Below are positions 4,463 through 34,528 of a stretch of DNA of 40,480 bases, piece after piece. The stretch lies in assembly GCA_028278665.1 (NCBI GenBank), contig JAQAJI010000003.1, forward strand, positions 1 through 40,480, read 5' to 3'. The position numbers were made by a program, and so were the translations under genes. The notes beneath the pieces are model-generated. The model was not told the origin of the DNA and made no database searches. It saw only the letters and a list, made by a program, of their open reading frames with translations. This stretch comes from Candidatus Rariloculus versatilis. GTDB lineage: Bacteria; Pseudomonadota; Gammaproteobacteria; Steroidobacterales; Rariloculaceae. Position 1 is the stretch's first letter. Each line of letters starts with the position of its first letter.

Positions 4463-5143
4463 TCACGCCATCTCCGCCGCTCGCATGACTGAATTGAGGT
4501 AGTTGTCGTAGGCGCCGCAGCGGCACAGGTTCCCGGACATCGCAAGCCGCGCCTCGTCGCGCGTCGGGTTCGGGTTCGCCGTGAGCAGCGCAACAGCGCT
4601 CATGATCTGGCCCGGGGTGCAGAAACCGCATTGCGGGCCGAGTTCGTCGATCATCGCCTGCTGAACCGGATGCAGTTCGCCGGACTCGCTCTCGAGGCCT
4701 TCGACCGTAGTGATTGCCTTGTTCCTGGCCGCATGCGTCAGCGTCGAACACGAGTAATGCGCGACGTCGTCAAGCAACACCGTGCAAGCCCCGCACTCGC
4801 CCCTGTCGCAGCCGAGCTTGGTGCCCGTGAGGTTCAGCTTGTAGCGCAGCGTCATAGCGAGCGTTTCGTTTGGCATCACGTCGACGCGCCGCATCTGGCC
4901 GTTGACGTTGAGCGTCAGCAGCCGCTCGACTCCGCCGGCCGCAGCCGGTGCAGCCCCCTGTTCACCCGGCTCGCAGGCGGTCAGGAACACGGCGGCACTC
5001 GAGGCGACCGCGCCCGAAGCAATGACACCCTTGATGAACTGGCGGCGCGACGCCTTGGTCGATGCGACTTGCGTCAGCGCGCCGTCGTCAAAACGCGGCT
5101 CCGGAAATGACTCCGGTCCTGTGACGAGGTTCTTATCGGACAT
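4463..5143 (-). CDS. xanthine dehydrogenase family 2Fe-2S subunit with Tat signal
   Basis: SRRQFIKGVIASGAVASSAAVFLTACEPG (twin-arginine, lipobox-like) then CDRGECGACTVLLDD and CGFCTPGQIM / CRCGAYDNY cluster motifs. Confidence 0.95.
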   Translation of the reverse strand: MSDKNLVTGPESFPEPRFDDGALTQVASTKASRRQFIKGVIASGAVASSAAVFLTACEPGEQGAAPAAAGGVERLLTLNVNGQMRRVDVMPNETLAMTLRYKLNLTGTKLGCDRGECGACTVLLDDVAHYSCSTLTHAARNKAITTVEGLESESGELHPVQQAMIDELGPQCGFCTPGQIMSAVALLTANPNPTRDEARLAMSGNLCRCGAYDNYLNSVMRAAEMA

Positions 5144-27667: not shown

Positions 27668-28495
27668 CTACAGCGGCGCGTCAGGATTCGCGATCGTCCG
27701 CCACATGTGCGCCACGGGACTCGCGTCGTTGCCGAGCCCCTCTGCCGGCTGCCGGAAGTGGCGCCCGACGATGTCGACGAATGGGTCCATCGACACGACG
27801 GCGTCCGGATCGAACGCGTACAGGTCGCTGACCGTAACCTCGCGCGGAGCGTCGTACCAACTGTGGTCGCGCAGCATGTTCCAGTCGGCCCGGATGTGCG
27901 CCGCGGGCACGTAGTCCTCGCCGAATATCCTGCGGTACAGGTCCGGGTAGACATAACCGGCCTCGTCGTCCGGGTAGAAGCGCAGCGCCTGGTGGTACTT
28001 GATCGCGAAGCTCGTGCGCTCGGGCACGTACGGCTCGTAGAGCTGCGCGCCCCAGTATCCGTGATCGGTGCGCATGATGGCCTGCACGGTGTCGTGCAGC
28101 AGGCAGGCGAGGATGATCTCCTCGTCGACGCCGCGCTCCATCGCCTTGTTCGCGCTCTGCAGGCAGTGGTTGCTTTGCCGCGCGAAGCGCAGATCAAAGA
28201 AATCGAACAGCGTTGGATTGTCCGGCATCGGCGCCAGGACCGGGACGTTGTCGCCGCTCGTGTTCAGGAAGGATGTGCCCGTTCCGCGCCGGTAGCTGCG
28301 CGTCGGAATCTGCGCCTCGACCTCGGCCGCGGTCGGGAAGTCGCCGCCACCGGATCCCGCGCCCGCCTGCGCAAGCTCAAGCCGCTCGTTGAGCGCATCC
28401 TCGAGCGCGTCGGCGCGTGCTTCGTGACTCATGAGGCCGACTGCCGCGGCTCCGCCCAGGCTGGCAATGAAGTCTCTGCGATCCAGTTCGATCAT
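27668..28495 (-). CDS. Tat-exported HD-domain protein, PhnZ/TmpB-like
   Basis: MIELDRRDFIASLGGAAAVGL (Tat) then SNHCLQSANKAMERGVDEEIILACLLHDTVQAIMRTDHGYWGAQLYEPYV...IKYHQALRFYPDDE. Confidence 0.75.
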   Translation of the reverse strand: MIELDRRDFIASLGGAAAVGLMSHEARADALEDALNERLELAQAGAGSGGGDFPTAAEVEAQIPTRSYRRGTGTSFLNTSGDNVPVLAPMPDNPTLFDFFDLRFARQSNHCLQSANKAMERGVDEEIILACLLHDTVQAIMRTDHGYWGAQLYEPYVPERTSFAIKYHQALRFYPDDEAGYVYPDLYRRIFGEDYVPAAHIRADWNMLRDHSWYDAPREVTVSDLYAFDPDAVVSMDPFVDIVGRHFRQPAEGLGNDASPVAHMWRTIANPDAPL

Positions 28496-28574: not shown

Positions 28575-31484
28575 TTACTTGAGCGCGTCGGCCAGCACGC
28601 GGGCGACGTGCAGCGCCGTGCGCTCGCTGCCGTCGGCGATCTGGTGGCGGCAGCTCGTTCCGTCCGCGACGATCAGCGTGTCCTCGCCCGCGTCCCGGAC
28701 GACCGGCAACAGCGCCATTTCCGCCATCGCGAGCGACACCTCGACGTGTTCGGCTTCGTAACCGAAAGCCCCGGCCATGCCGCAGCAGCTCGACTGGATC
28801 GTCTCGACCGCGAGATCGGGTATGAGCCCGAGTGCTTCGTTCACCGCCGGCATGACCGCGAAAGCTTTCTGGTGGCAGTGGCCGTGGACCAGAGCGCGCC
28901 GGTAGGGAAGCTTCCCGAGCGGCAGCGAGAGCCGGCCCGCGGCCTTCTCGCGGCTCAGGAACTCTTCGAACGTCAGCGCGACTTGCGCGAGCGCCGCTGT
29001 GTCGGCGCCCGGCAGGAGCGTGAGGAACTCATCGCGCAGACCGAGCACGCAGGATGGTTCGAGGCCGATGACAGGAACGCCGCGCTCGACGAACGGCTTC
29101 AATGCCGCAACGGTGCGTTTCGCTTCGGCTCGCGCCTCCTCGACCATGCCCGTGGAGAGATACGTCCTGCCGCAGCACAGCGGTCGCCCGCCGTCGGCGG
29201 CCTGAGCAACCGCGACGCGGAAACCCGCGGCCGTGAGCACCTTGACGGCGGCGCGCAGGTTCTCCGGTTCGAAGTAGATATTGAATGTGTCCGCCAGCAG
29301 CACGACGTCGGCATCCGCGGCGCTCGCCGGGCTTTCGGCGGCCGGCCGGAACCGGTCGCGCCGCCAGGTCGGGAGGCTGCGCCGCGCAGCGATGCCGGCG
29401 AGCTTTTCCATGAGCAGCCCCAGCCCCGGGATGCGGTTTCGCAGATTCAACAAGCCGGACAGGCGAGCGGCCTTCGGCGCAAGGCGCGGCAGATGGGCGA
29501 TGAGCCTGTCCCTGAGCGGGCGCGCATGGCGGCGGTGGTACTGGTTCAGGAACTCGATCTTCATGGCCGCCATGTCGACGCCCGTCGGGCACTCCCGCCT
29601 GCAGGCCTTGCAGGACACGCAAAGTTCGAGCGTCCTGTACATGTCCTTCGACGTGAGGGCATCGCTGCCGAGCTGGCCGGCAAGCGCCCGGCGCAGCGAG
29701 TTCGCGCGGCCGCGCGTCAGGTCGCGTTCGTTGTGTGTGACGCGCCAGGACGGGCACATCGGGCTCGCGTCGAACTTGCGGCAGTGGCCGTTGTTGTTGC
29801 ACATCTCCACGGCCGCCGCGAAGCCGCGCCCGCGGTTGTGCGCGCCGACCTCGTGCGCGGACCAGTCGAGCGCCGTCTCGATCGGCACGGTCGCGTAGCC
29901 CGGCTTGTACCGGAACAGCTCCCGGTCGTCCATCTTCGGCGGATCGACGATCTTGCCGGGGTTCATGAGCCCCTTCGGATCGAACTGGCGCTTGATCTCG
30001 CCGAATGCCATCGTGAGCCTTGGCCCATACATGGGCTCGATCCATTCCGAGCGCACGAGACCGTCGCCGTGCTCGCCCGAGTACGAACCCTTGTACTCGC
30101 GCACGATCGCGCAGGCTTCCTCGGCGATCGCGCGCATGGACCTGACGTCCTTGTCCGAGCGCATGTCGAGCACCGGGCGCACGTGCAAGGTGCCGACCGA
30201 GGCGTGAGCGTACCAGGTCCCGCGGGTCCCGTGCTTCTCGAACACTTCGGTCAGGCGCGCGGTGTAGTCGGCCAGATGCTCGAGCGGTACGGCGCAGTCC
30301 TCGATGAACGAGACGGGTTTCCCGTCGCCCTTCATGGACATCATGATGTTGAGGCCGGCCTTGCGAACGTTCCAGAAGTCCTTCTGCAGCACCGGGTCCT
30401 CGATCTCGACCACGCTGTCCGGCAGGCCGAGGTCGCCCATGAGCTCGACGAGTTGCTTGAGCCTTGCGACCTGCTCCGCGTGCTCGTCGCCTGCGAACTC
30501 GACGAGCAGGATCGCGTCGGGGTCGCCGCGCACGACCCGGTCGACGATGCCTTGAAAAGCAGGATTCGCGCGCGACAGCTCGATCATCGTGCGGTCGACG
30601 AGTTCCACGGCCGCGGGATCGAGCTTGACGATGTGCTGCGTGTGGCTCATCGCCTCGTAAAAGGTCGCAAAGTGCGCGATGCCGAGCACCTTGTGCCGGG
30701 GCAGCGGCGCGAGCTTGAGCTTGATCCGGCGGAAATAGCCGAGTGTGCCTTCGGAACCCACGAGCAGGTGGGCCATGTTGAAGCGGCCCGTCGACGCCAT
30801 GTCCAGGTTGTAGCCGGCGACACGGCGCTGGACTTTCGGAACGCGTGCGGCGATCTCCTCCTCTTCGCCGACGTAGTAGCCGCGCACGACATCGACGAGG
30901 TGACTGTAGCGTTGCGGGCCGTCGACGCGCTCGCCGATCGGACCGACCTCGCCGAATTCGACGATGTCGCCGCTCGTGAGCCAGGCTTCGACGGCCAGCA
31001 CGTTGTGCACCATGTTGCCGTAGCGGATCGAGCGCGCGCCGCAGCTGTTGTTCGCCGTCATCCCGCCGATCGTCGCCTGGGCGGATGTCGAGACGTCGAC
31101 CGGATACCAGAGCCCGTGCGGCTTCAGATATGCGTTGAGCCTGTCGAGCACGACGCCGGGCTCGACCCGGACGGTCCTCTCCGCTACATCGAGTTGGTCG
31201 ATACCGGCGAGGTGCCTGCTGTTGTCGACGACGATCGCCTCGCCCACCGCCTGACCGCATTGCGAACTGCCGGCGCCGCGCGGCAGTATCGGCAAGTTCG
31301 AATCGGCGGCGATTTCAACTGCGGCGAGCGCGTCGTCGGCGCTGCGCGGCACGACGATGCCGAGCGGATCGACCTGGTAGATGGAGGCATCCGTGGAATA
31401 ACGGGCGCGGGAAAACGCGTCGAAAAGCACCTCGCAGTCGAGCTCGCGCCGGAAGCGGGCTTCGAGCGCGCCGAGATCGGTCAT
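28575..31484 (-). CDS. FAD-linked oxidase / Fe-S fusion (D-lactate dehydrogenase / hydroxyacid oxidase type)
   Basis: LPILPRGAGSSQCGQAV (FAD-binding type 4), SGEHGDGLVRSEW, CVSCKACRRECPTGVDM, and CCG-like SSCCGMAGAFGYE. Confidence 0.93.
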   Translation of the reverse strand: MTDLGALEARFRRELDCEVLFDAFSRARYSTDASIYQVDPLGIVVPRSADDALAAVEIAADSNLPILPRGAGSSQCGQAVGEAIVVDNSRHLAGIDQLDVAERTVRVEPGVVLDRLNAYLKPHGLWYPVDVSTSAQATIGGMTANNSCGARSIRYGNMVHNVLAVEAWLTSGDIVEFGEVGPIGERVDGPQRYSHLVDVVRGYYVGEEEEIAARVPKVQRRVAGYNLDMASTGRFNMAHLLVGSEGTLGYFRRIKLKLAPLPRHKVLGIAHFATFYEAMSHTQHIVKLDPAAVELVDRTMIELSRANPAFQGIVDRVVRGDPDAILLVEFAGDEHAEQVARLKQLVELMGDLGLPDSVVEIEDPVLQKDFWNVRKAGLNIMMSMKGDGKPVSFIEDCAVPLEHLADYTARLTEVFEKHGTRGTWYAHASVGTLHVRPVLDMRSDKDVRSMRAIAEEACAIVREYKGSYSGEHGDGLVRSEWIEPMYGPRLTMAFGEIKRQFDPKGLMNPGKIVDPPKMDDRELFRYKPGYATVPIETALDWSAHEVGAHNRGRGFAAAVEMCNNNGHCRKFDASPMCPSWRVTHNERDLTRGRANSLRRALAGQLGSDALTSKDMYRTLELCVSCKACRRECPTGVDMAAMKIEFLNQYHRRHARPLRDRLIAHLPRLAPKAARLSGLLNLRNRIPGLGLLMEKLAGIAARRSLPTWRRDRFRPAAESPASAADADVVLLADTFNIYFEPENLRAAVKVLTAAGFRVAVAQAADGGRPLCCGRTYLSTGMVEEARAEAKRTVAALKPFVERGVPVIGLEPSCVLGLRDEFLTLLPGADTAALAQVALTFEEFLSREKAAGRLSLPLGKLPYRRALVHGHCHQKAFAVMPAVNEALGLIPDLAVETIQSSCCGMAGAFGYEAEHVEVSLAMAEMALLPVVRDAGEDTLIVADGTSCRHQIADGSERTALHVARVLADALK

Positions 31485-31806
31485 CGTCGTACCGCCATGC
31501 ACTCAGGAGCCCGCTCGTTCACGGACGCCATCATAGCGTGATCGGACGCGGCGCGGAAAAGCTGCAGCGAGCCGAACCGTAGCCTCGGCATCGGCGCGCC
31601 GGGCCTCGCAATTCCTGACCTCTTGGGTCGTCAGGCCGCTCGGGGGGCAGGCGCAACGCTCGATATGCCTCGGATCGATCGACATGCAGGAGGCGTTCCT
31701 GGGCCGAGCATGAAGTCAGGCGCAGCGGTGAGCGTGGCTGGCTCAGGGTCGTGTGGCAATCGCGCGCGCTCTGGATAACAATGCGGCGGCGAACCAGGGT
31801 ACGTCG

Positions 31807-32994
31807 ATGACTCACGCAAGCGGCCGCCACTTCCTGCAAATCCCGGGACCGACCAACGTTCCCGATCGCGTATTGCGCGCGATCGACCAACCGACGATCG
31901 ACCACCGGGGACCGGAGTTCGCCGCGCTCGGGCTCGAGATCCTGGGCGAGCTGCCGAAGATCTTTCAGACGGAGCATCCCGTCATCATTTACCCCTCGTC
32001 GGGCACGGGCGCCTGGGAGGCCGCGCTCGTCAACGCCCTGTCGCCCGGGGACCGGGTCCTCATGTGCGAGACGGGGCAATTCGCGGTGCTCTGGCAGCAG
32101 CTCGCGGCGCGGCTCGGGTTCGATACGCAGGTCCTGCCGACCGACTGGCGGCACGGCGCGGACCCCGAGGTGATCGAAGCGGCACTCACGGATGATTCCG
32201 CACACGCGATCAAGGCCGTCTGCATCGTGCACAATGAAACTTCGACCGGCGTCGCAAGCCGCATCGGCAAAATACGCAAGGCGATCGATCGCGCGCAACA
32301 CCCGGCGCTCTTCCTGGTCGACACGATCTCCTCGCTCGCCTCGATCGACTACCGGATGGACGAATGGGGCGTCGACGTGACCGTCGCAGGCTCGCAGAAG
32401 GGCCTGATGCTGCCGCCGGGGCTCGCGTTCAACGCGGTCTCGGACAAGGCGGTGGCGGCGAGCCGCAGCGCGTCGACGCCGAAGAGCTACTGGAGCTGGG
32501 ACGACGTGCTCGCCGCCAACAAGTCCGGCTTCTTCCCGTATACGCCTGCGACGAATCTGCTCTATGGGCTCAGCGAGTCGATCCGCATGCTGCTCGAGGA
32601 AGGCCTCGACAATGTTTTCGCGCGGCACGACCGGCACGCGGCGGCGACGCGCCTGGCGGTCGGGACCTGGGGCCTCGAGGTGCTGTGCCTGAATCCCGAC
32701 GAGCACTCGAGTTCGCTGACGGCCGTACTCATGCCCGAGGGGCATGACGCCGACAGTTTCCGCGCGGTCGTGCTCGAGGCCTTCGACATGTCGCTCGGCA
32801 CCGGGCTCGGCCGGCTCGCCGGCAAGGTATTCAGGATCGGCCACCTCGGCAGCTTCAACGACCTCATGCTCGCGGGCACGCTGGCCGGCGTCGAAATGGG
32901 CCTGGCCCGGGCGGGCGTCCCGCACGAACGCGGCGGCGTCGCGGCTGCACTCGACTGGCTCGCCGACAGTTCGCCCGAGCGCGCGAACGGGTAA
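31807..32994 (+). CDS. class V aminotransferase, serine-glyoxylate/alanine-glyoxylate type
   Basis: HFLQIPGPTNVPDRVLRAIDQPTIDHRGPEFAAL, YPSSGTGAWEAALVN, VHNETSTGV, VDVTVAGSQKGLMLPPGL (PLP Lys). Confidence 0.92.
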   Translation: MTHASGRHFLQIPGPTNVPDRVLRAIDQPTIDHRGPEFAALGLEILGELPKIFQTEHPVIIYPSSGTGAWEAALVNALSPGDRVLMCETGQFAVLWQQLAARLGFDTQVLPTDWRHGADPEVIEAALTDDSAHAIKAVCIVHNETSTGVASRIGKIRKAIDRAQHPALFLVDTISSLASIDYRMDEWGVDVTVAGSQKGLMLPPGLAFNAVSDKAVAASRSASTPKSYWSWDDVLAANKSGFFPYTPATNLLYGLSESIRMLLEEGLDNVFARHDRHAAATRLAVGTWGLEVLCLNPDEHSSSLTAVLMPEGHDADSFRAVVLEAFDMSLGTGLGRLAGKVFRIGHLGSFNDLMLAGTLAGVEMGLARAGVPHERGGVAAALDWLADSSPERANG

Positions 32995-33012
32995 GGGAGC
33001 GCTGGATGTACC

Positions 33013-33132
33013 GCACAAGGTCGCCGAAACGTCGGAGCGACTGCACAACCTCGCCGGAGCGTCGCATCGACTACGCAACGTCACCGGAAGACGGCATGAA
33101 GTGCGCAGCGTCCTGCGATCGCCGGAGCCTTC
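33013..33132. repeat. degenerate 30-nt tandem repeat, ~4 units
   Basis: Units at 33013, 33043, 33073, 33103: GCACAAGGTCGCCGAAACGTCGGAGCGACT / GCACAACCTCGCCGGAGCGTCGCATCGACT / ACGCAACGTCACCGGAAGACGGCATGAAGT / GCGCAGCGTCCTGCGATCGCCGGAGCCTTC. Confidence 0.75.
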
Positions 33133-33166
33133 CGGACCGAATGCCGAACCCGTAACGGAGCGCCGC

Positions 33167-34528
33167 ATGGATCCCGCAACCGCCGTCGCCACGAGCCCGC
33201 TGGTCGCTCTTTTCGCGTTCCTCGGCGTCATCGTCCTTCTGCTGTTTCTGATCGCGAAATGGCGCTGGCACGTGTTTCTCGCCCTGCTCGTGCCGCTGTT
33301 GCTCTTTGGCGTGATCCCGGGCGTGCAAAGGAACAACTTCATCGCCGCGTTCGAATCGGGTTTCGGCAGCACGCTCGGCTCGATCGGCGTCGTGATCGTG
33401 CTCGGCTCGATCATCGCCGAGGCGCTCAGACACACCGGCGCGATCCAGACCATCACGCAAACCATGGTCAGCGCGGTCGGATCGAAGCGCATGCCGCTCG
33501 CGCTGACCCTGACGGGCTTCGTGCTCGGCATCGCGATCTTTTCCGACGTCGCCTACGTGATCCTGAACCCGCTCGTGCACTCGGCCGCAAGGATGATGGG
33601 CGTCACGATCAGCGTGATGTCGATCGGCCTCGTTGGCTCGCTGCAGCTTACCCACGCGATCGTGCCGCCCACGCCCGGCCCGCTTGCCGCAGCCGCCATC
33701 GTCGGCGCGGACATCGGCACGACGATCATTTTCGGCGGGATCGCCTGTCTTGCGGGCTCGCTCGGAAGCTGGATCTGGGGCCAGTACGTGATCGGGCCGC
33801 GCATCCCCACCATGGCCGCCGAGGAATACGTGACCGATGACTTTCTCCACAGCAATGCCGCGCGGCCCAATGCATGGAGTTCGTACGCACCGATCGCCGT
33901 ACCGATCGTGCTGATTTCCGCACAGAGCGTCTCGAGGCTCTTTCTTCCGGAAGGCCACATCGTGCGCGACGGGCTCGCTTACATCGGCTGGCCGGTGATC
34001 GCGCTCAGCATTGGCGTGTGGCTCTCGTTCCGCAACATCCGCACGCCCGAGCACCGCAAGGCGTCGACGAACGCCTGGGTCGAGGAAGCGCTCCGGATCT
34101 CGGCAATGATCCTCGTCGTGACCGGGCTCGGCGGCTCGCTGAGCGAAATCCTCAGGGGAACGCCGGCCGTCGATTACATCAGCGGCATCTTTGCCGCCTA
34201 CGGGTTGCCCGCAATACTCCTGCCGTTCGTGATCGGCATCATCGGCAACATGATCACGGGCTCAACGACGGTCGGCGTCATCACGGCCGCGTCGCTCGTA
34301 GCACCCATGCTCGGCAGCCTCAGCCTCTCGCCCGAAGCCGCGATGCTCGCGGGAGCCAGTGGCTCGGTGATCATCAAGTATGTGAACAGCAGCTACTTCT
34401 GGGTCTGTACGTCGCTGTCGAAGCTCAGCGCCAACGATGCGATTCTCGGCTATGGCGGCGCGACGCTTGTCGGCGGAATCGTGTCGTTCCTGGTTGTCTG
34501 CCTGCTCTGGGTTGTCGGGCTCGTCTGA
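33167..34528 (+). CDS. GntP family permease
   Basis: Multi-TM; SDVAYVILNPLVHSAARMMG, QLTHAIVPPTPGPLAAAAIVGADIG, NMITGSTTVGVITAASLVAPML. Start chosen at MDPATAVATSP; track ORF runs back through the repeat patch. Confidence 0.92.
   Translation: MDPATAVATSPLVALFAFLGVIVLLLFLIAKWRWHVFLALLVPLLLFGVIPGVQRNNFIAAFESGFGSTLGSIGVVIVLGSIIAEALRHTGAIQTITQTMVSAVGSKRMPLALTLTGFVLGIAIFSDVAYVILNPLVHSAARMMGVTISVMSIGLVGSLQLTHAIVPPTPGPLAAAAIVGADIGTTIIFGGIACLAGSLGSWIWGQYVIGPRIPTMAAEEYVTDDFLHSNAARPNAWSSYAPIAVPIVLISAQSVSRLFLPEGHIVRDGLAYIGWPVIALSIGVWLSFRNIRTPEHRKASTNAWVEEALRISAMILVVTGLGGSLSEILRGTPAVDYISGIFAAYGLPAILLPFVIGIIGNMITGSTTVGVITAASLVAPMLGSLSLSPEAAMLAGASGSVIIKYVNSSYFWVCTSLSKLSANDAILGYGGATLVGGIVSFLVVCLLWVVGLV

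Follow-up and report, generated by a model that had tools for sequence, protein, structure and literature searches.

A distinct family of HD-domain proteins on the PhnZ/TmpB branch, with a predicted dinuclear metal site and, in the lineage of Candidatus Rariloculus versatilis, a plausible twin-arginine signal

Iron oxygenases of the PhnZ and TmpB type break carbon–phosphorus bonds. The characterised HD-domain oxygenases are only three, MIOX, PhnZ and TmpB (2020 review, PMC8177086); the same source describes the mechanism of these mixed-valent diiron enzymes, in which the Asp of the HD dyad bridges both metals. In PhnZ and TmpB a YxxE loop acts as a gate to the second iron and recognises the amine of the substrate (PMC8177086). 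The metal-binding residues by themselves do not reveal the chemistry: YqeK is a hydrolase that binds diiron through the same six-residue motif, H..HD..H..H..D (PMC8177086), so that the motif speaks for two metals and not for the use of oxygen.

The window, meaning the whole stretch of DNA that was analysed, is 40,480 nucleotides long and comes from Candidatus Rariloculus versatilis (contig JAQAJI010000003.1). Its HD-domain gene, at 27668..28495 as placed by a sequence-only reading, runs on the minus strand from the ATG at 28495 to the stop codon at 27668–27670 and encodes a diiron-type protein of 275 residues; the plus-strand ORFs that overlap it are antisense shadows. With 43 related loci in other genomes (species-representative genomes searched) and motif residues 100% conserved in 37–40 aligned members, the ORF is far beyond chance. 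The window genome (2.9 Mb) carries one close copy. On the minus strand the coding sequence divides into (i) a conserved, Tat-signal-like segment, residues 1–39 (DRRDFIASLGGAAAVGLMSHEARADALE; 28379..28495), (ii) residues 40–83 (28247..28378), a linker variable in length and sequence to about residue 60 and then a short conserved RGxG, and (iii) the HD catalytic domain, residues 84–275 (27671..28246). A Pfam scan of the protein returns HD domain, the main match, and TAT_signal, both sub-threshold.

The HD motifs are present exactly as first noted: N109-H110-C-L-Q-S-A, L-L-H134-D135, D-H145-GYWGA and Y-H168-QALRFY. The H...HD...H...H pattern proposed from them has the five ligands right but stops short of the sixth, D224. 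This residue is fixed by aligning three groups together, the family, a sister HD family and TmpB/PhnZ: across the 42 sequences the six ligand columns are the only invariant ones. The putative ligands are H110 (28166..28168, minus strand, as are the others), the dyad H134–D135 (28091..28096), the second-metal ligands H145 (28061..28063) and H168 (27992..27994), and D224 (27824..27826), which aligns with the Asp of WD(E/Q) in PhnZ/TmpB and with its counterpart in the sister family. All six are present in every aligned family member, and D135 is the expected equivalent of the bridging Asp. A dinuclear metal site is, on these conserved residues, a near-certain prediction.

Sequence profiles, HMM–HMM comparison and fold searches all point to TmpB and PhnZ, and the invariant ligands likewise bear out the 'PhnZ/TmpB-like' description in the sequence-only reading. 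When the family profile is searched against all PDB sequences, it retrieves TmpB at E 7e-7 and PhnZ at 1e-5, with the next match at 0.096. By hhalign, the family matches the sister HD family over the whole domain (E 7e-21) and PhnZ/TmpB at E ~7e-14, and a RelA/SpoT HD control reaches E 8e-4 (prob 24%) over 30 columns only. Two structure models were used: the first was given family members alone as input (pLDDT 88.5, pTM 0.76), and the second is an AlphaFold model of the catalytic domain on a wider alignment that includes TmpB/PhnZ rows (pLDDT 95, pTM 0.91). In Foldseek, PDB ranks 1–10 for the first model are all TmpB or PhnZ (E 6e-5 to 1e-3, prob 1.00; next E 0.5), and the second model has the same ten top ranks, again at prob 1.00, with TM 0.51–0.59. 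Because the alignment behind the second model held TmpB/PhnZ rows, the first is the independent one. In fold the models come closest to TmpB and PhnZ and not to a hydrolytic HD phosphodiesterase. The profiles, the HMM–HMM comparison and the Foldseek searches with both confident models single out TmpB and PhnZ as the only close solved relatives of the family, and the label 'PhnZ/TmpB-like, dinuclear' is well supported for the window protein.

Closeness does not amount to membership. In the tree the family, the sister HD family and PhnZ/TmpB form three clades, each with support of 95/90 or better; the family is monophyletic and adjoins the sister family. The YxxE motif (Y24/E27 in PhnZ) before the first His is absent from the window protein, and in both the HMM alignment and the three-group alignment the YxxE loop of PhnZ/TmpB falls opposite a gap in the family. 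A gapless reading, in which YxxE becomes FxxR and E27 becomes R103, was dropped as unproven, given that the HMM alignment puts the loop in a gap. MIOX lacks the loop too (PMC8177086), so that its loss excludes the function of PhnZ/TmpB and not oxygenase chemistry. NCBIfam yields weak local matches only, to Phn-HD, TmpB and PhnZ1, all far under cut-off (bits/cut-off 23.3/214.6 for TIGR03276, 17.7/300 for the TmpB model NF049941, 14.1/300 for NF052439). With the loop missing and every curated cut-off missed widely, the window protein is neither a PhnZ nor a TmpB. Its group, distinct and previously unnamed, is an uncharacterised family within the HD superfamily, on the branch of PhnZ/TmpB. In one subfamily (L049–L052) an insertion of about eight residues (YDAPDGGIRQNS) precedes the first His, at roughly the position of the YxxE loop in PhnZ/TmpB, and three of the four members retain HDTGH.

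Family members, ~45–93% identical to the window protein, occur in Gammaproteobacteria, Alphaproteobacteria (including Sphingobium sp. SYK-6), Acidobacteriota, Gemmatimonadota and Acidimicrobiia. The spread is thin: 3 of 399 Pseudomonadota genomes, the window genome counted in, have a member at E <= 1e-20. Invariant positions specific to the family are R103, R172, Y181, Y183, Y187, H211, Y214, R218 and Y226, together with EGLG (252–255), H263, W265 and R266.

The sister HD family is short (~186–255 aa) and has the same ligand spacing, H-H 24, H-H 11 and H-H 23 residues, with the counterpart of D224 in (W/Y)D, preceded by RDHxxY. It differs from the family in having neither the Tat-like N-terminal segment, nor the GYxYPxxY...FGxDY insertion, nor the PxEGLGxDxSxxAHxWR C-terminal tail. 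It has no curated name, and its best NCBIfam match, TIGR03276, is far under cut-off. The window genome has members on contigs C45 (by sarcosine-oxidase-like genes) and C57, and further members occur in many genomes of the order. The C45 member (L066:5162–5719, plus strand; 185 aa) has all six ligands and is flanked by corrinoid methyl-transfer genes (a B12-binding protein and a RACo-type activator) and by sarcosine-oxidase/dimethylglycine-dehydrogenase-like genes. A link of the sister family to methylated amines is possible.

The N-terminal segment had been taken for a twin-arginine-like signal, and the letters DRRDFIASLGG are exact at residues 5–15. Within residues 6–28, RRDFI precedes a run of 14 uncharged residues and ARA (26–28), the Tat-type succession of RRx(F)(I/L), h-region and A-x-A, in which ARA could be the signal-peptidase site. 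The hydropathy is 1.79, against 1.68–1.88 in a genuine Tat family taken as control from the same set of genomes. The Pfam TAT_signal cut-off, 22.7 bits, is missed in both scans (16.9 and 20.3 bits); the higher score ranks the protein 9th of 37 in a scan of its own genome, where the 2Fe-2S Tat protein of the window, at 19.4 bits, is also under cut-off. This internal Tat control is a small subunit encoded at 4463–5143 on the minus strand and has a clear Tat signal, SRRQFIKGVIASGAVASSAAVFLTAC. The window genome also has a TatC gene. The motif and the hydropathy agree with those of real Tat signals in the window genome, but a TAT_signal match of any kind is found in only four of 37 members (in five of the 37 rows the N terminus is missing), and the segment persists in close homologues that lack RR or carry charges in it. 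RR is absent in 21 of 48 members, and the tree shows eight or more changes of state; in five Acidobacteriota loci (L010, L012, L013, L017 and L018) the h-region stretch holds 3–6 charges and the segment is otherwise conserved. A twin-arginine signal is plausible in the window lineage, as judged from its sequence, and is not a family-wide trait; other lineages appear to keep the HD protein inside the cytoplasm.

Whether the window protein leaves the cytoplasm through Tat is evenly balanced. The earlier proposal, a Tat-exported diiron oxygenase acting on a substrate in the periplasm, might hold or fail with equal ease. It draws on RRDFI, the uncharged h-region, the Arg of ARA in the c-region, TatC and the own-genome rank, on the more canonical signals of early-branching members, and on loci that adjoin genes for sulfatase, tannase or penicillin amidase, families that are often exported. 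It has to contend with a segment conserved even where RR is lost or 3–6 charges are present, with conservation that does not end at the putative cleavage site but extends over ADALE to E32 and L39, and with a model in which residues 1–39 are ordered helices (H6–12, H16–21, H24–45; pLDDT 81–89). The same residues would suit a helical element for oligomerisation or docking in the cytoplasm, with the Tat likeness arising by chance, a reading that falls a little short of an even chance. M22, A28, E32 and L39 are invariant or nearly so across versions that look competent and incompetent for export, the variable linker comes after the segment, and within the genus the codons of residues 1–28 show 11 synonymous and no non-synonymous differences (two comparisons summed), which means strong constraint on the segment whatever its role. 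However, genuine Tat signals encoded by these genomes show good conservation too, and RR, hydrophobicity and the A-x-A site occur together in most early-branching members. In 58 relatives no convincing fusion of the segment to another protein turned up, the matches being only family paralogues and generic weak Tat-like ones. In the limited literature collection searched, no paper deals with a Tat-linked HD oxygenase or with the homologue in SYK-6.

The window protein is probably, by analogy, an HD diiron oxygenase of the PhnZ/TmpB branch. We infer oxygenase activity from closeness in sequence and fold to PhnZ/TmpB, because the six-ligand motif is shared with the hydrolase YqeK. Following MIOX, PhnZ and TmpB, the six residues would bind two irons bridged by D135, of which one would hold a hydroxylated substrate and the other bind O2. 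An iron-superoxo species would then abstract the hydrogen of the carbinol carbon, a C–C (or C–P) bond would be cleaved, and the mixed-valent centre would regenerate itself without a reductase; in this lineage, the protein may exit the cytoplasm folded, via Tat. Since YxxE is absent, R103, R172 and R218 are invariant and Tyr residues are many, an anionic, carboxylate-type substrate is expected and not a quaternary or primary amine. The substrate is probably anionic and not a PhnZ-type aminophosphonate, with the Arg-to-anion argument drawn from conservation only. A dinuclear HD phosphohydrolase on the PhnZ-like branch, which would use Fe, Mn or some other metal and no O2 to hydrolyse a phosphoester or nucleotide in the manner of YqeK, would fit the diiron site of YqeK, the generic HD domain as main Pfam match and the absence from the window protein of the HDxGH motif of PhnZ/TmpB, but is unlikely in view of Foldseek values of E >= 0.5 for HD hydrolase structures, among them PgpH, RelA/SpoT-type and GppA, against <= 1.3e-3 for all TmpB/PhnZ chains, the weak hhalign result of the SpoT HD control and the failure of the family profile to retrieve the YqeK structures in the PDB.

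For the putative oxygenase, gene context identifies no substrate, because no neighbour gene is conserved across family loci. About 80 bp upstream and co-directional lies a gene for an FAD_binding_4/FAD-oxidase_C/4Fe-4S/CCG oxidoreductase (28575..31502, minus strand), related to the D-2-hydroxyglutarate dehydrogenase YdiJ and 2-hydroxyacid-dehydrogenase-like; its link to the HD gene is confined to this genus. Divergent from it are a class V aminotransferase gene (31753–32994, plus strand), like the aspartate–glyoxylate aminotransferase BhcA but below cut-off, and an adjoining GntP-family permease gene (32744–34528, plus strand). The only clusters shared outside the genus are antisense shadow ORFs of the HD gene and, in a few loci, a subclass-B3 metallo-beta-lactamase-type gene. 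Other loci have differing neighbours, among them genes for tannase, SnoaL, amidohydrolase, sulfatase, penicillin amidase and TauD, a pattern that fits a peripheral catabolic enzyme. In Sphingobium sp. SYK-6 (L015) SnoaL-like and alpha/beta-hydrolase genes adjoin the homologue. Use of a PhnZ-type substrate finds no support: the YxxE loop is missing and no phosphonate gene is found among the HD-gene neighbours examined, nor is a PhnY/TmpA-type alpha-ketoglutarate hydroxylase partner among the adjacent window genes examined. At one locus (L007:8944–10047) a TauD-family alpha-ketoglutarate dioxygenase gene, weakly TmpA-like (NF049936, 2e-6), lies directly downstream of the homologue, an arrangement that recalls the TmpA/TmpB pair; such a pair was rejected as a reading, since no further copy turned up at the other loci searched.

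A family apart, with all six ligands and without the substrate loop of PhnZ/TmpB, suggests that a self-reactivating diiron centre may serve new substrates. Export, if true, would move diiron chemistry beyond the cytoplasm, where it would have no NAD(P)H-linked reductase to draw on and would need none. The natural variation of the N-terminal segment offers a ready comparison for what makes a Tat signal work. The fullest picture would make the family a new mixed-valent lineage among HD diiron oxygenases, with an anionic substrate that is not a phosphonate, with folded export via Tat in some of its members and with repeated switches between periplasm and cytoplasm; it is speculative and rather doubtful as a whole.

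Among the known HD proteins, the RelA/SpoT HD hydrolases resemble the family in an HMM–HMM similarity that does not span the domain (30 hhalign columns). The Ap4A hydrolase YqeK has the six-ligand pattern in common with it and, though its structure is solved, is absent from the PDB profile search and from the fold matches listed. MIOX shares the H..HD..H..H..D ligand set; no MIOX profile match occurs in any family member scanned with Pfam, MIOX is absent from the PDB fold matches listed, and a viral MIOX model aligns only weakly (E 2.8). PhnZ (4MLM, 4N6W, 4N71) and the Phn-HD model TIGR03276 share with the window protein what TmpB shares, and D224 aligns with their terminal Asp ligand. Identity to TmpB and PhnZ is ~20%, the HDxGH of both is not kept, and the stretch from the HD dyad to the next His is 11 residues shorter than in TmpB. 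TmpB itself, the (R)-1-hydroxy-2-trimethylaminoethylphosphonate oxygenase (6NPA), has the six ligands, HxLQxA, LLHD and HxxxGA in common with the window protein, and is the best solved-structure match to the family by sequence profile and by fold.
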